Shown: positions 1,528 through 6,894 of the stretch, piece after piece
How positions within the stretch are numbered: the first letter of the stretch is position 1
Layout of the letters: the number at the start of each line of letters is the position of its first letter
From: Alphaproteobacteria bacterium
Lineage (GTDB): Bacteria; Pseudomonadota; Alphaproteobacteria; Micropepsales; Micropepsaceae
NCBI GenBank assembly: GCA_017307315.1
Contig: JAFKFF010000105.1
Location: 1 to 11,605, forward strand
Direction of reading: 5' to 3'
Length of the DNA: 11,605 nucleotides
Position numbers and translations under genes: made by a program
The notes under the pieces: model-generated
Seen by the model: only the letters and a program-made list of their open reading frames with translations
The model's database searches: none
What the model was told of the DNA's origin: nothing

Positions 1528-1555
1528 GGGAAATTTTCCTGGAATGGCTTTTCCC
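1528..1555. promoter_or_regulatory. Probable response-regulator box upstream of the kinase gene
   Basis: GGGAA-ATT-TTCCT at 1528-1540 matches the GGGAA-N3-TTCCC palindrome repeated upstream of pqqA. Two half sites follow, TGGAA at 1540-1544 and TTCCC at 1551-1555. A TATAAG at 1575-1580 could be a -10 element, which would place the last half site over the -35 region, as at pqqA. Inferred role: autoregulation of the two-component operon. Confidence 0.5.
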
Positions 1556-1606
1556 GCCGACCCAAGTCCCGCGCTATAAGGTGGGGGCAACCTGTCCCCG
1601 GCCTTC

Positions 1607-2926
1607 ATGTCGCTCCAGTTCCGCGTTCTGGGCTCCATCGCCACTCTTCTGCTGCTGACGCTGCTGTGCGGCGGCACGCTCCTGTCGCTGCGGGCCCGCT
1701 CGGTGGTGGATATCGAAGTCCGCACCGCCTTCCGGGGCGCGGTCAGTTCCGTGCGCGACACGTTGAAAAGCGACGTGCAGCATACCGTCACCCTTCGCCA
1801 GGTGGTGGCCAGCTTCGAAGGCCAGCGCCATGTGCGGGCCGCGCTGATCAACGAAAAGGGAAAAGTGATCGTGCATTCCCGGATCGGCCGCCTCAACGAT
1901 CCCGCCCCGGCCTGGTTCGCGCGGCTGATGACCCCGCCCGTGATGACCGCTCAGCTCAATATCAACCTGCCGCAATACCCCTGCGTGGTGGAACTGGTCA
2001 GCGATCCCAGCAGCGAGATCGCCGATGTCTGGGATCATGCCCGCGACACCTTTGCCGCGATGCTGCTGTTCTGCGGCGCGACCATGGCGGCAGTGTCGGC
2101 GGCGGTGGCCTATGCCCTGCGGTTCTTCAGCCGCTTCCAGACGGGATTGCTGGCAATCTCCGACGGCGGTTACGACGCGCGCCTCGATGCCAGGGGGCCG
2201 CCGGAATTCGCGGCACTGGCGCATGGCTTCAATCACATGGCGGCGCGGCTGGAAGCGTTTTCGGACAGCAATCAGCGGCTTCAGCGCCAGATTCAGAATG
2301 TGCAGGAAGAAGAACGCGCCGGAATCGCCCGCGACCTGCATGACGAAGTGGGCCCCTACCTGTTCGCCATTCAAGTCGACGCCAACAAGGTGGCCAAGTC
2401 CCGCCAACCGGAAACCCGCGCTTTGGGCGCGGCGATCCGCGACGCCGCCCAGCATGTACAAACCCATGTGAAAGAGATTCTGCGCCAGTTGCGCCCGGTG
2501 AGCAGCCTCGATTTCGGGCTGGAGCCCGCCATCGCCGATCTCATCGCCTTCTGGACGCGCCGCCACCCCGCCATCCGCTTCGAGCGCGATATCGCCGCCA
2601 CGCCCGGCCTGGATCGCCGAGGCGAAGACACCATTTATCGCGTGGTGCAGGAAAGCATCAGCAATGCAGTACGCCACGGGAATCCGCAAACCATCCGGAT
2701 CGGGGTCGCCAACGGGCCGGACAATGTCACTGTCTGTGTCGCCGACGATGGCGGCGGGCTTCGGCAGGACGCATCGGCGGAATTGAGTTTGGGACGACAG
2801 GGTCTTGCCGGCATGCGGGAACGGTTGCGCCATCTCGGTGGACAGCTTTCCATCGCCGAGGAGCCAGACCATGGCGTGACCGTCCGCGCCATCCTGCCCA
2901 AGCTGCGTGAACTGGAAATCGCATGA
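1607..2926 (+). CDS. MoxY-like sensor histidine kinase (NarL/UhpB class)
   Basis: This is a membrane sensor kinase of 439 residues. The order is: TM1 at about 7-28; an extracytoplasmic region at about 29-148 resembling the LapD/MoxY N-terminal domain (RHVRAALI, PAPAWFARL, SDPSSEIADVW); TM2 at about 149-170; a HAMP region to about 223; a HisKA_3 helix with phospho-acceptor His245 in RDLHDE; and a HATPase domain with N-box (QESISNAVRH, 348-357), DDGGG at 380-384 and a late GRQGLAGMRERL motif. MoxY of Paracoccus works with MoxX on methanol oxidation, a PQQ-dependent process, which fits the neighbouring pqq genes. The stop overlaps the regulator start (ATGA), so the two are translationally coupled. 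The ATG at 1607 has no clear Shine-Dalgarno site, but the TM1 position supports it. The signal it senses is unknown. Confidence 0.9.
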   Translation: MSLQFRVLGSIATLLLLTLLCGGTLLSLRARSVVDIEVRTAFRGAVSSVRDTLKSDVQHTVTLRQVVASFEGQRHVRAALINEKGKVIVHSRIGRLNDPAPAWFARLMTPPVMTAQLNINLPQYPCVVELVSDPSSEIADVWDHARDTFAAMLLFCGATMAAVSAAVAYALRFFSRFQTGLLAISDGGYDARLDARGPPEFAALAHGFNHMAARLEAFSDSNQRLQRQIQNVQEEERAGIARDLHDEVGPYLFAIQVDANKVAKSRQPETRALGAAIRDAAQHVQTHVKEILRQLRPVSSLDFGLEPAIADLIAFWTRRHPAIRFERDIAATPGLDRRGEDTIYRVVQESISNAVRHGNPQTIRIGVANGPDNVTVCVADDGGGLRQDASAELSLGRQGLAGMRERLRHLGGQLSIAEEPDHGVTVRAILPKLRELEIA

Positions 2927-3552
2927 GCCGCGTGCTGCTCGTGGACGATCACGCCATCGTGCGGTCGGGCATCCGCCGCCTGTTGGCCGATCTGCCCGAT
3001 TTGGAGCTTTCGGAAGCGGCGAGCGGGGAGGAAGCGCTCGACCAGGTTCGCGGCACCGGCTTCCAGCTTCTGATCCTGGACCTCAATCTGCCGGGCCTGG
3101 GCGGTCTGGAATTGTTGCGCCGCCTCATCAAGGCCGATCCGCGTCTGCAGATTCTGGTCTTCTCCCTTCACACCGAGGCGATCTACGCCACCCGTGCCAT
3201 GGAAGCGGGCGCGCGCGGCTTCATCAGCAAGAACGCGGCACCGGAAGAATTGCTGGGCGCGATCGATACGGTGCTGAAAGGCGGCACCGTGATCGAGCGC
3301 GATATCGCGAACGAAATGGCGGTGCATGAGATCGGCGAGAATGCCTATTTGCGCCCCCTCACCCAGCGCGACCTGGAAATCCTGCGCCTGCTGGCGGAAG
3401 GCAACAATCTCAACCAGATCGCCGATGCCTTGGGCATCGCCTACAAGACCGTCGCCAACACCTTGAGCCGCATCAAGGAGAAGCTCGGGGTCAGCCACAC
3501 GGCGGATTTGATTCGCATTGCCATCGGACGCGGGCTTACGGATCTGCGGTAG
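2923..3552 (+). CDS. LuxR/NarL-type response regulator, cognate of the upstream kinase
   Basis: This 209-residue regulator has an N-terminal receiver (acidic pair D8-D9, phospho-acceptor D53 in LILDLNLPG, conserved Lys103 in FISKN). A linker leads to a LuxR-type helix-turn-helix at about 145-205 (LTQRDLEILRLLAEG, NQIADALGIAYKTVANTLSRIKEKLGV). Length and order are normal for the NarL/FixJ family. Its ATG overlaps the kinase stop by ATGA, so the partnership is clear. The 163-base gap after it carries an array of palindromes and then pqqA. I infer that this protein, when phosphorylated, binds those boxes and activates pqqA and its own operon. LuxR-type regulators of pqq genes are known in pseudomonads, and MoxX is the analogue in Paracoccus. 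Confidence 0.92.
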   Translation: MSRVLLVDDHAIVRSGIRRLLADLPDLELSEAASGEEALDQVRGTGFQLLILDLNLPGLGGLELLRRLIKADPRLQILVFSLHTEAIYATRAMEAGARGFISKNAAPEELLGAIDTVLKGGTVIERDIANEMAVHEIGENAYLRPLTQRDLEILRLLAEGNNLNQIADALGIAYKTVANTLSRIKEKLGVSHTADLIRIAIGRGLTDLR

Positions 3553-3571
3553 CGATCGGCTCGCGCGGGCT

Positions 3572-3645
3572 CCGGGAATTCTTCCCGGAAATTTTCCCGG
3601 CGTGGGAAATTCGCGGAGGAATTCTTCCCAAAGGAGGAATTGACG
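3572..3645. promoter_or_regulatory. Array of GGGAA-N3-TTCCC operator-like boxes and -35 element upstream of pqqA
   Basis: Three full boxes are visible: CCGGGAATTCTTCCCGG at 3572-3588 (perfect 7-base arms, 3-base spacer), CGGAAATTTTCCC at 3586-3598 and AGGAATTCTTCCC at 3617-3629. There is a left half site GGGAA at 3604-3608 and another, AGGAA, at 3635-3639. The last abuts TTGACG (3640-3645), a good -35 element. Centres are spaced about 12, 18, 13 and 18 bases apart. No convincing -10 was found. This is the layout expected for a dimeric LuxR-type activator; the binding protein is inferred to be the regulator just upstream. Confidence 0.6.
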
Positions 3646-3715
3646 CCGTCACGCGCTTTGCGCGCATCAAACGCGCTCCTAAGGTTTTTCCGTTTCTGTC
3701 AACAAGGAGAAACCA

Positions 3716-3793
3716 ATGACCTGGAACACCCCGCGCGTGATCGAAATCGCCGTCGGCATGGAAATCAACTGCTACGCCTGCGCCGATATCTGA
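3716..3793 (+). CDS. pqqA: PQQ precursor peptide PqqA
   Basis: This 25-residue ribosomal peptide is the backbone of PQQ: PqqE joins the side chains of a conserved Glu and Tyr, which then become the cofactor. The peptide has Glu16 and Tyr20 in the order G-M-E-I-N-C-Y, the invariant E-x3-Y spacing, and a typical MTWNTPRVIEI start. A strong Shine-Dalgarno site, AAGGAGA (3704-3710), precedes the ATG by five bases. It is oddly rich in Cys near the reactive Tyr (Cys19 and Cys22). It is the first gene after the palindrome array and is followed by a terminator-like hairpin, so it may be made in excess over the enzymes. The identification is secure from the motif and from pqqBCDE following. Confidence 0.95.
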   Translation: MTWNTPRVIEIAVGMEINCYACADI

Positions 3794-3852: not shown

Positions 3853-4785
3853 TTGCTCCATATTCTCGTTCTCGGCGCCGCGGCGGGCGGCGGCTTTCCG
3901 CAATGGAACAGCAACGACGCCATCGCGCGGCGCGCCCGGGCGGGCGACCCCGATTTGCCACTCCGCACCCAATCCTCCATCGCCGTCAGCGCGGATGGCA
4001 GGCGCTGGGTGCTGTTCAATGCCTCGCCCGACCTGCGCCAGCAGATCAACGATCGCAGACAATTGCAGCCGGCCCCGGACGCGGCTCTGCGCGCCAGCCC
4101 GATCGCGGCGGTGGTGCTGACCAATGCCGATGTCGATCATGTCACCGGTCTGCTCAATCTGCGCGAAAGCCAGGCTTTCGCGCTCTACGCCCATTCCCGC
4201 GTTCTCGGCGTCCTGGCCGCGAACAGCATCTTCAATGTTCTCAACCCCGCCTTTGTCCCGCGCCGGCCCTTGCCGATGGACGAACCCTTGATGCTGATGG
4301 ACGGAAGCGGCGCGCCGCTGGGACTCTCGGTCCGCGCCTTTCCGGTACCCGGCAAAGTGGCGCTGTGGCTGGAAGACGGCAATGCCAGGGATTTCGGAAC
4401 CGCCGAGGGTGACACGCTCGGCTTGGAGATCGCCGGCGCGGATGGAAGATCGTTCTTCTATATTCCCGCTTGCGCGGCCATGACGGCCGAATTGGCGGCG
4501 CGGCTGCAAGACGCGTCGCTGGTGTTTTTCGACGGCACCTTGTGGCGCGACGACGAGATGATCGCGGCCGGCGTCGGCACCAAGACCGGGCGACGCATGG
4601 GCCATATGAGCTGCGACGGCGCCGGCGGCAGCATCGCCGCCCTCGCGGATCTGAACATCGCGCGCAAGATTTTCATTCACATCAACAATACCAATCCGCT
4701 TTTCATCGCCGGCTCTCCCGAACGCGCGCGCGCGCGCCAAGCCGGCTGGGAGATCGCGGAGGACGGCTTGGAGGTCGCGCTTTGA
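3853..4785 (+). CDS. pqqB: PqqB, metallo-beta-lactamase-fold PQQ biosynthesis protein
   Basis: PqqB is a metallo-beta-lactamase-fold protein reported to hydroxylate the Glu-Tyr-derived intermediate before PqqC acts. The start was set at TTG 3853 because family members begin just before the ILVLGAAAGGGFPQWN strand-loop. The longer open frame upstream runs through pqqA and the hairpin and is not coding. The result is 310 residues, the usual length. Visible marks are GGGFPQWN (12-19), TQSSIAVSADGRRW, NASPDLRQQI, the partial metal motif NADVDHVTGLLNLRE (D93, D95, H96, lacking the first two His of HxHxDH as is usual in PqqB), and the C-terminal IHINNTNP. The Cys motif after PQWN in many homologues is absent (PQWNSNDAIA). 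Its stop overlaps the pqqC start. Confidence 0.92.
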   Translation: MLHILVLGAAAGGGFPQWNSNDAIARRARAGDPDLPLRTQSSIAVSADGRRWVLFNASPDLRQQINDRRQLQPAPDAALRASPIAAVVLTNADVDHVTGLLNLRESQAFALYAHSRVLGVLAANSIFNVLNPAFVPRRPLPMDEPLMLMDGSGAPLGLSVRAFPVPGKVALWLEDGNARDFGTAEGDTLGLEIAGADGRSFFYIPACAAMTAELAARLQDASLVFFDGTLWRDDEMIAAGVGTKTGRRMGHMSCDGAGGSIAALADLNIARKIFIHINNTNPLFIAGSPERARARQAGWEIAEDGLEVAL

Positions 4786-5519
4786 ACCAGCCCTGGCCGC
4801 GTGAGGATTTCGAACGGCGCCTGCGCGCCATTGGCGAGGCGCGCTATCACGACCGGCACCCTTTCCATATCAAGCTGCACGAAGGCGCGCTCAATCAGGG
4901 CCAGATGCAGGCCTGGGTGCTGAACCGTTTCTATTATCAGAAGTCGATTCCCCTCAAGGATGCCAGCCTGGTCGGACGTGCCGACGATATCGCGCTGCGC
5001 CGCGAATGGATCAGCCGCATCACCGACCATGACGGCACCAGGCCGGGCGAAGGCGGCATCGAGCGCTGGCTGGTGCTGGCGGAGGGCGTGGGCCTCGACC
5101 GGGCCTATGTCGCCAGTTGCGCGGGCGTGTTGCCGGCGACCCGCTTCGCCTGCGAGGCCTATATCCGCTTCGTGCGCGAAAAGACCTTGCTGGAAGCGGT
5201 GGCCTCCTCGCTCACCGAGATGTTCGCGCCCACCCTGCACAAGACCCGGATCGCCGCCCTGCTGGAACATTACCCCTTCGCCAACGACAAGACCCTGGCT
5301 TATTTCCGCGCCCGGCTGGTGCAGGCGCCGGAAGATGTCGCCTTCGGGCTTGGCTATGTGCTGGACCATGCCGACAGCCGCGAGAAGCAGGAACAATGCC
5401 TTGCGGCGCTGAGCTTCAAGACCGACGTGCTGTGGAGCCAGCTCGACGCCCTCAATCACGCCTATGTCACGCCCGCGCTGATTCCGCCCGGCGCTTTCGT
5501 GCCGAAGGACCGGTCATGA
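4782..5519 (+). CDS. pqqC: Pyrroloquinoline-quinone synthase PqqC
   Basis: PqqC is the cofactorless oxidase that performs the last step, ring closure and oxidation of the bicyclic intermediate to PQQ. The protein has 245 residues, close to the usual length. It shows the all-helical PqqC/TENA-like pattern: HDRHPFH (23-29), NRFYYQKSIPLKD (from 48), ITDHDG, CEAYIRFV, SSLTEMFAP and FGLGYVLDHADS. The start is TTG 4782, whose last bases form the pqqB stop (TTGA). No ATG or GTG occurs nearby in frame, and the alignment of NQPWPREDF to family N-termini supports it. The end overlaps pqqD by ATGA. The TTG start and overlap imply coupling of translation to pqqB. Confidence 0.95.
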   Translation: MNQPWPREDFERRLRAIGEARYHDRHPFHIKLHEGALNQGQMQAWVLNRFYYQKSIPLKDASLVGRADDIALRREWISRITDHDGTRPGEGGIERWLVLAEGVGLDRAYVASCAGVLPATRFACEAYIRFVREKTLLEAVASSLTEMFAPTLHKTRIAALLEHYPFANDKTLAYFRARLVQAPEDVAFGLGYVLDHADSREKQEQCLAALSFKTDVLWSQLDALNHAYVTPALIPPGAFVPKDRS

Positions 5520-5806
5520 ACGAACGGGTGCAAGTCGGCCTGGAATCGGTCCCACGCCTCGGTCCGCACATGCGGCTGCGCCACGACAAGGCGCGGGGAC
5601 AATGGACCATTCAGGCGCCCGAGCGCAGCTTCGTATTGGACCAGACCGCGCATGCCATCGTCTCGCGCTGCGATGGCAAGGTGGCGCTGGGCACGATGAT
5701 CGACGATCTCTGCGCCGCCTTTCCCGGCGCCCCGCGGGATGTGATCGAAAAGGACGTCCTCGCTTTGGTGCAGAATTTCGTCGACAAAGGCGTGATGCAG
5801 GCATGA
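5516..5806 (+). CDS. pqqD: PqqD, peptide chaperone for PqqA
   Basis: PqqD is the small RiPP recognition protein that binds PqqA and delivers it to PqqE. It has 96 residues, normal for the family, with the expected pattern PRLGPHMRLRHDKARGQWTI, then ERSFVLDQTAHAIVSRCDG and a C-terminal helical part containing IDDL and VLALVQNFVDKGV. It begins at the ATG overlapping the pqqC stop and ends in an ATGA overlap with pqqE, so C, D and E are translationally linked. It is a separate protein here, not fused to PqqC or PqqE as in some methylotrophs. Location is cytoplasmic. Confidence 0.93.
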   Translation: MNERVQVGLESVPRLGPHMRLRHDKARGQWTIQAPERSFVLDQTAHAIVSRCDGKVALGTMIDDLCAAFPGAPRDVIEKDVLALVQNFVDKGVMQA

Positions 5807-6894
5807 GCGCGGTGGAACCGCCGTTGGCGCTTCTGGCGGAAGTGACGCATCGCTGCCCGCTGCAATGCCCCTATTGTTCCAATCCGCTGGCGCTGGAGCG
5901 TCCGGCGAACGAGATGGCGACGGCCGACTGGCTGCGCGCCATCGCCGAAGCGGCGGAATTGGGTTGCCTGCAGGTGCATTTCTCCGGCGGAGAGCCGACG
6001 GCGCGGCGCGACCTGGAGCAGCTCGTCGCGGGCGCTACGGCGGCGGGGCTCTACACCAATCTCATCACCTCCGGCGTGGGATGGGACGCGAGGCGGCTCA
6101 CAGCGCTGATCGAGGCGGGCTTGGAGCACGTCCAGCTCAGCTTCCAGGATTCGGGTGCGGACATCGGCGAGCGCATCGGTGGCTATCAAGGCGCCCATGC
6201 CAAGAAACTCGCGGCCGCGAAAACGGTACGCGAAGCCGGCTTGCCGCTCACCGCCAATTTCGTGGTGCACCGCCAGAACCTGCATCACTTGCCGGAGATG
6301 CTGGACATGGCGGTGACGCTGGGGGCGCACCGGGCCGAGATCGCCAATGTCCAATATTATGGCTGGGCGCTGAAGAACCGCGCCGCCCTGATGCCCAGTC
6401 GCGCGCAGCTTGACGAAATGACGGCCGCGGTGGCGGAAGCGCGCAAGCGGTTGGAAGGCATCCTGGTGATCGATTATGTGGTGCCGGATTATTATGCCCG
6501 GCGCCCCAAATCCTGCATGGGTGGCTGGGGCCGCCGATTCCTGAACATTTCGCCGTCCGGCAGGGTCCTGCCTTGTCATGCCGCCGAAAGCATCGAAGGC
6601 ATGGCCTTCGACAATGTGCGCCAGCGCAGCCTGGTCGACATCTGGCGCGGCTCCGAAGCGTTCAATCGCTTCCGCGGCACGGCGTGGATGCCCGAGCCCT
6701 GCCGCAGTTGCGACCGCAAGGAAATCGATTGGGGCGGCTGCCGCTGCCAGGCTTTCGCCATCACCGGAGATGCCGCCAGAACCGATCCGGCCTGCGGCTT
6801 GTCGGACGATCACGCGCGGTTGGTCGATGTCGCCGTCACCGAAGCCGACGCCGGCGCGGACGGCTTCATCTATCGCCGCTATGGCGCCGGCTGA
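5803..6894 (+). CDS. pqqE: PqqE, radical SAM/SPASM enzyme crosslinking PqqA
   Basis: PqqE uses S-adenosylmethionine to form the carbon-carbon bond between Glu16 and Tyr20 of PqqA. The protein has 363 residues, close to the usual 360-390. The radical-SAM CxxxCxxC is at Cys18, Cys22 and Cys25 (HRCPLQCPYC), and GGEP at 62-65 is the SAM amino-group motif. The SPASM half carries Cys238, Cys258, Cys300, Cys303, Asp309, Cys313, Cys315 and Cys331. Their spacing matches the auxiliary-cluster ligands, including the Asp, known from Methylobacterium PqqE with a constant offset of ten. All key residues are present, so the enzyme should be active. It is the last pqq gene in this run. Its final 16 bases overlap the end of the opposing arsR-type gene. 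Confidence 0.96.
   Translation: MSAVEPPLALLAEVTHRCPLQCPYCSNPLALERPANEMATADWLRAIAEAAELGCLQVHFSGGEPTARRDLEQLVAGATAAGLYTNLITSGVGWDARRLTALIEAGLEHVQLSFQDSGADIGERIGGYQGAHAKKLAAAKTVREAGLPLTANFVVHRQNLHHLPEMLDMAVTLGAHRAEIANVQYYGWALKNRAALMPSRAQLDEMTAAVAEARKRLEGILVIDYVVPDYYARRPKSCMGGWGRRFLNISPSGRVLPCHAAESIEGMAFDNVRQRSLVDIWRGSEAFNRFRGTAWMPEPCRSCDRKEIDWGGCRCQAFAITGDAARTDPACGLSDDHARLVDVAVTEADAGADGFIYRRYGAG

Follow-up and report, generated by a model that had tools for sequence, protein, structure and literature searches.

A GGGAA-N3-TTCCC box, a putative operator for autoregulation by a MoxXY/FlhSR-like two-component system beside the pqq genes of an alphaproteobacterium

Gene Order and Features of the Locus

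The window, the whole 11,605-nt stretch of DNA analyzed here, comes from an assembly (G000) of 2.66 Mb in 507 contigs that is 87% complete. Within it, genes for a sensor kinase and a response regulator are followed contiguously by pqqA and then by pqqB, C, D, and E:

1607..2926, + strand: sensor histidine kinase gene (LapD/MoxY periplasmic domain, HAMP, HisKA_3, and HATPase)
2923..3552, + strand: LuxR/NarL-type response regulator gene (receiver and GerE domains), proposed to encode the binder of the boxes described below
3716..3793, + strand: pqqA (TIGR02107, over cut-off)
3853..4785, + strand: pqqB (TIGR02108, over cut-off; start codon uncertain)
4782..5504, + strand: pqqC (TIGR02111, over cut-off)
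5501..5806, + strand: pqqD (TIGR03859, over cut-off)
5803..6894, + strand: pqqE (TIGR02109, over cut-off)

The periplasmic domain of the kinase corresponds to the Pfam family LapD_MoxY_N (PF16448; 2.4e-08, 34.3 bits against a cut-off of 25). The regulator gene starts 4 nt before the kinase gene ends and encodes a receiver domain (PF00072; 5.9e-27) and a C-terminal GerE helix-turn-helix (PF00196; 1e-14). D53, the presumed phosphorylated residue, is invariant in 10/10 aligned regulators. The same holds for K175, T176, A178, and N179, which we take to lie in the DNA-reading helix of the regulator; their invariance is expected if the binding site is common to these proteins. Outside its own cluster, the nearest homologue of the regulator (94% identical) belongs to a Rhizomicrobium sp., and "the genus" in the genome comparisons below denotes Rhizomicrobium, as taken from the names of the matches.

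Palindromic Boxes Upstream of pqqA

The 163-nt gap between the regulator gene and pqqA (3553-3715) contains three sites that match GGGAA-N3-TTCCC with no more than one mismatch, together with two half sites:

3574..3586, + strand: distal pqqA box, GGGAATTCTTCCC; perfect palindrome with 0 mismatches
3586..3598, + strand: second palindrome, CGGAAATTTTCCC; 1 mismatch, shares one base with the first
3604..3608, + strand: half site GGGAA, read from the sequence; not conserved
3617..3629, + strand: proximal pqqA box, AGGAATTCTTCCC; 1 mismatch, inside an 18-nt block at 3615-3632
3635..3639, + strand: half site AGGAA, 1 mismatch to GGGAA; not conserved

A sequence-only reading of the window had described three palindromes, one of them perfect, and two half sites before pqqA. 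All five are in place between 3574 and 3639, the palindrome at 3574-3586 is indeed free of mismatches, and the five centres (3580, 3592, 3610, 3623, and 3641) reproduce the spacings of 12, 18, 13, and 18 nt that it had given. It had also set the last half site against a TTGACG -35 element. The adjacency is real in the window, where TTGACG at 3640-3645 directly abuts AGGAA, but the hexamer is absent from three relatives, and no promoter that uses it emerges when 3500-3760 is scanned for the sigma-70 consensus.

Counts over larger regions are what chance clustering in a GC-rich gap would lead one to expect. With two mismatches allowed, the whole window shows no enrichment (10 sites found against 6.3 expected, with 26 of 200 shuffles reaching 10), and the genome contains 3 copies of the exact palindrome as against 2 of a reversed control pattern. 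One exact site, G000:C424:1423, lies within a 532-aa ORF; it was rejected as an operator and taken as chance, and enrichment by count alone, over window or genome, was set aside as uninformative. The signal is in the clustering, quality, position, and conservation of the sites. First-order Markov simulation of 20,000 sequences gave no site in 19,476, one site in 512, two in 12, and in none the three seen here; each of nine permuted half sites gave 0 sites in this pqqA gap and the gaps of three relatives, and two of the boxes are conserved. An origin by chance is thus hardly credible.

Conservation in Relatives With the Same Gene Order

The order kinase-regulator-pqqA-B-C-E recurs in three other assemblies, L052, L053, and L054 (pqqD lay outside the gene-order query). 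These are taken to be genomes G107, G110, and G106, with which their contig numbers and coordinates agree, and each was counted once. In all three (3/3), pqqA is preceded by two boxes that deviate from the consensus at one position at most. Two or three boxes are therefore found in every one of the four linked genomes (4/4), which are close relatives (regulators approximately 91-92% identical) and not four independent cases.

In a four-way alignment, the proximal block at 3615-3632 is invariant at 18/18 positions, and the distal box at 10/13, with a box at that place in 3/3 relatives. Invariance falls to 6/30 positions in the stretch at 3587-3616 and to 11/46 in the spacer at 3633-3678, and rises to 35/37 in the leader at 3679-3715. 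The second palindrome at 3586-3598, the half sites, and TTGACG are not conserved. The five sites had been read as an array of dimers stacked on the DNA; the relatives keep neither the middle palindrome nor the half sites, so the 12/18/13/18 stack is peculiar to this genome and does not characterize the system.

A Box Upstream of the Kinase Gene

A further box, absent from the sequence-only reading, precedes the kinase gene and is accompanied by a half site and a candidate promoter element:

1528..1540, + strand: kinase box, GGGAAATTTTCCT; 1 mismatch
1549..1556, + strand: half site after the kinase box, TTTTCCCG; kept in three same-order relatives
1575..1580, + strand: TATAAG, candidate kinase -10 element with a putative promoter role, 34 nt after the box

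In a search of 69 genomes of the genus (kinase orthologue threshold E <= 1e-50), the kinase was found in 15/69 and pqqB over cut-off in 6/69, four of these six having the kinase. The other 11 of the 15 kinase-bearing genomes are without pqqB over cut-off, a count that includes some assemblies of low completeness (75% in the lowest). Of the 15 orthologues, 12 have, in the 250 nt before the kinase gene, a box that departs from the consensus at one position at most; in 8 of them it is perfect, and nine permuted half sites give 0/15 each. The 12 genomes comprise the 4 pqq-linked ones and 8 without pqqB over cut-off. G045 has a box with two mismatches at the usual spacing, and G016 and G009 have no site upstream of the kinase even at two mismatches. 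With -10-like hexamers chosen by a loose pattern, 34-36 nt separate the box from a TATANN hexamer in 8/15 genus kinases, the two-mismatch G045 included; the gap is 40-42 nt in three close relatives, 27 nt in G017 (TATGAT), and 11 nt in G025 (GATAGG).

Conservation of the box in orthologous gaps had been named as a check, and the relatives bear it out before pqqA (3/3) and in the kinase gaps alike. Together with the box at 12/15 kinase orthologues, this agrees with the tie that had been drawn between the operator and the adjacent LuxR-type regulator.

Across 24 kinase upstream regions, from the genus and from outside it, 12 perfect GGGAA-Nx-TTCCC sites occur, all with a spacer of 3 and none with spacers of 0-2 or 4-12. 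When one mismatch is allowed, spacer 3 gives 17, spacer 2 gives 14, and the others give at most 5; the spacer-2 count is expected from spacer-3 sites whose third spacer base is T.

Another reading is that the inverted repeats form a structure in the transcript or terminate the kinase-regulator operon. The repeats before pqqA begin 22 nt after the regulator stop codon, and the 163-nt gap at 3553-3715, taken as RNA, folds to -65.5 kcal/mol, better than most shuffles (z = -3.0; 1/200 as good). Any cluster of palindromes would do so, and the good folding is probably merely due to them. A terminator scan of 3500-3760 found none. In front of the kinase gene, too, most relatives carry this box, and what stays constant is a palindrome of 13 bp around a 3-nt centre, the form expected of a dimer site. 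A function in RNA is very improbable on these grounds.

Kinase-Regulator Pairs Beyond the Genus

Relatives of the kinase (E <= 1e-40, with at most four candidates scored per genome) were found in 10 of 385 genomes of the class, three from this genus and seven others from six families. Together with two second copies, these seven give nine loci. Five of them, in G394, G423, G315, G424, and G122, have a mismatch-free box before the kinase gene, and the second copy in G031 has one with a single mismatch. In G429, kinase and regulator genes are divergent and a perfect box lies beyond the 3' end of the kinase; the second copy in G423 has a perfect box after the regulator and not upstream of the kinase, and G352 has no box at its kinase locus. 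Counted strictly within 250 nt, the score over the nine loci is 5/9, the upstream region of G424 being misplaced by an over-long start, and one permuted half site reaches 1/9. The box-bearing distant pairs have kinases of only 29-39% identity.

The neighbors of these pairs vary, and the gap that holds the box often also borders a TonB receptor or PQQ dehydrogenase gene. A divergent PQQ methanol/ethanol dehydrogenase gene (over cut-off) adjoins the G122 kinase, and a partial S-formylglutathione hydrolase gene adjoins that of G429, which is approximately 32% identical to the window kinase. Among the seven outside genomes, pqqB is over cut-off in five, G394 and G424 being the other two.

Other pqq Operons, Quinoprotein Genes, and Genome-Wide Counts

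The sequence-only reading had raised the possibility of a PQQ operator. As a general PQQ operator the box was rejected, being absent near pqqA in 2/2 genus operons that lack the kinase and in 4/5 operons of other families. Specifically, the 700 nt before pqqA in the two genus operons (G003 and G041) are free of boxes at the one-mismatch level, the nearest being approximately 740 nt upstream in G041, and the four operons from other families show none before pqqA over the sequence examined. The fifth, in G429, has a one-mismatch site approximately 60-75 nt upstream of pqqA. The box thus appears, from its distribution over these genomes, to belong to the regulator family rather than to the PQQ genes.

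On both strands, CGGGAAN3TTCCC outnumbers its reversed control by 67 to 11 in the 15 kinase-bearing genus genomes and by 122 to 80 in the 54 others, fully palindromic sites counting twice in this tally. The excess differs between the two groups (Mann-Whitney test on the differences, p = 0.0013, uncorrected for relatedness). The weaker excess in genomes without the kinase would suit a transcription factor other than the adjacent regulator as the protein that binds the boxes, as would two one-mismatch box-like sites in G111, a genome with no kinase orthologue, before a quinoprotein gene (L245, G111:C31, upstream of 9899-11803). These two may perhaps be read by a paralogous regulator, and paralogues of the same family could likewise explain the remaining excess. 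The box accompanies the kinase-regulator genes in several families, and most pqq operons not linked to these genes lack it near pqqA, which makes a different binding protein improbable.

A general role before PQQ dehydrogenases was also rejected: 118 quinoprotein upstream regions of 600 nt show no general excess. A box with at most one mismatch occurs in 5/69 regions from kinase-bearing genomes and 2/49 from genomes without the kinase, against 4/69 and 3/49 for the best permuted controls. The test left out 9/61 and 4/59 matches that start inside the domain, as well as 6 more of the 59, and it took in 17 regions of G036 and G042 from a list that does not cover all of theirs. Four of the five boxed regions are in G025 (4/9 examined there), and the four pqq-linked genomes contribute 0/17.

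Several single loci deserve mention in their own right. G025, which has the kinase and no pqqB over cut-off, bears perfect palindromes at L183:3042 and L184:2995, approximately 100-135 nt before quinoprotein dehydrogenase-like genes (PF01011). In G106, a perfect box (L118:2918) lies just upstream of an ECF sigma factor/FecR gene pair. G031, G017, G011, and G056 have a PQQ methanol/ethanol dehydrogenase over cut-off and no pqqB over cut-off, which suggests that they take PQQ from outside.

Linked TonB Receptors

A divergent TonB-receptor-like gene lies beside the kinase in G031 (second copy), G394, G423, G315, and G424, and within the genus in G017 and G011; the naming rests on NCBIfam matches below curated cut-offs. 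The receptor family as collected (L134:4614-6977, L328, L329, L330, L332, and L333) occurs in several families of Alphaproteobacteria, and the gap that its genes share with a MoxXY-like kinase-regulator pair contains a GGGAA-N3-TTCCC box.

Compared with the G011 receptor, five other kinase-linked receptors show 41-44% identity. Among solved structures, the G011 receptor alone matches YncD/PqqU best, and a six-receptor profile places a siderophore receptor first and YncD/PqqU next. The published signature of PqqU is an aromatic residue at Y99 together with R304 and R365 (PMC12124388). In the six receptors, the Y99 column reads S, L, L, Q, Q, and Q in a weak alignment (21 bits) that leaves R304 and R365 outside. 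Being non-aromatic at Y99 in 6/6, the receptors do not qualify as PqqU under this signature, and all of their NCBIfam matches fall below the PqqU cut-off; this identification was dropped.

A separate sequence, GGGAATTTTTCCC, shows no variation among the four pqq-linked genomes (G000:C333:130 on L124, L116:2946, L121:233, and L123:2772). It lies beside a possible membrane protein gene and, in three of the four, has a TonB receptor gene on its other side, the G000 contig ending first. This gap was not accepted as a counted box, as its letters may code for the start of a divergent protein.

One tentative reading, which we regard as possible and rather unlikely, is that the box marks a single alphaproteobacterial regulon, in which a MoxXY/FlhSR-like system tunes the supply or use of PQQ or its partners. 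Its target would depend on lineage: a TonB receptor (perhaps for PQQ or a lanthanide carrier), quinoprotein dehydrogenases, or, in this Rhizomicrobium clade, PQQ synthesis. If that were true, the regulator would have moved between scavenging a cofactor and making it by capture of the pqq operon.

Promoter Candidates and Mode of Action

Downstream of the proximal pqqA box lies a candidate promoter element:

3678..3683, + strand: CCTAAG, candidate pqqA -10 element with a putative promoter role (CATAAG in three relatives)

Because the sigma-70 consensus scan of 3500-3760 found no promoter at all, this hexamer is only a candidate. It follows the proximal box by 48 nt in the window and by 38 nt in the relatives; the difference is a 10-nt insertion in the window, close to one helical turn. 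The conserved boxes lie upstream of the core promoter, at a mostly constant distance from the -10-like hexamer and centred approximately 53-67 nt before the putative transcription start, which makes activation likelier than repression.

The regulator could instead bind the boxes and repress pqqA and its own genes until the signal relieves repression. Both modes are on record for one LuxR-type protein, PedR2, which activates pedE and represses pedH (PMC6115532), and the additional overlapping sites of this genome could let protein extend across the promoter. The spacing speaks for activation: the conserved boxes mostly end 34-48 nt before a -10-like hexamer, which suits contact with RNA polymerase better than blocking, the exceptions being G017 (27 nt) and G025 (11 nt). 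Repression is therefore unlikely, although it has more in its favor than binding by a different protein.

Proposed Model

The boxes are, with high probability, the autoregulatory operator of the adjacent MoxXY/FlhSR-like two-component system, which in this clade would also control pqqA, more likely as an activator. In this model, the kinase, with its MoxY-type periplasmic domain, would phosphorylate the LuxR-type response regulator, a dimer of which would then bind C-GGGAA-WWW-TTCCC-G. The box before the kinase-regulator genes would provide autoregulation, and the box group before pqqABCDE would let PQQ synthesis follow the signal, the pqq operon of this clade adjoining the regulator and bearing its box. 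Binding, phosphorylation, and activation are all inferred steps. What survives of the sequence-only reading is accordingly its putative operator of the adjacent regulator; the TTGACG -35 element and the stacked array are not general.

Comparison With Known Systems

NarL/DevR-type operators are inverted-repeat sites read by dimers of GerE-domain proteins, from which the present box differs in half site and spacing. MoxX is a LuxR-type regulator, and the window kinase has the same LapD_MoxY_N-type periplasmic domain as the MoxXY/MxaXY systems of methylotrophs. Unlike those systems, no methanol dehydrogenase gene lies in the window, and a PQQ methanol/ethanol dehydrogenase (TIGR03075) has no match over cut-off in the 87% complete source assembly. 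In Methylomicrobium buryatense, MxaY governs the lanthanide switch, according to a study in which neither "palindrom" nor "binding site" occurs (PMC5018670).

The FlhSR system of Paracoccus, likewise a kinase with a DNA-binding response regulator, controls formaldehyde and methanol oxidation genes (PMC8879981). The likeness extends to the distant relative G429, whose kinase gene has the partial S-formylglutathione hydrolase gene as a neighbor and a perfect box close by; unlike in FlhSR, formaldehyde oxidation genes are not among the window genes scanned.

In Pseudomonas, AgmR/ErbR (PedR1), LuxR-type like the regulator here, activates the ped cluster, the pqq operon, and PQQ-dependent genes; its proposed partner, PP_2683, is a hybrid kinase, and the pqq operon of P. 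putida is distant (PMC12997753). Unlike in the AgmR system, the kinase, regulator, and pqqABCDE are contiguous here and have a common box, the regulators being compared by description only. A second system, PedS2/PedR2, uses lanthanides as the cue for switching PQQ dehydrogenases (PMC6115532). Neither of these two papers (PMC12997753 and PMC6115532) contains "palindrom" or "consensus," and no operator with a GGGAA-N3-TTCCC consensus was recognized among the papers listed, as judged by titles and abstract openings, with subscription journals partly covered.

The kind of system is familiar; the new part is the consensus and its reach across Alphaproteobacteria. The operator consensus CGGGAAWWWTTCCCG is put forward for alphaproteobacterial sensor-regulator pairs that neighbor genes for TonB receptors, PQQ dehydrogenases, or PQQ synthesis. 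It lets the regulons of such pairs be predicted in uncultured genomes, and it makes the control of PQQ synthesis testable outside Pseudomonas and the methylotrophs.
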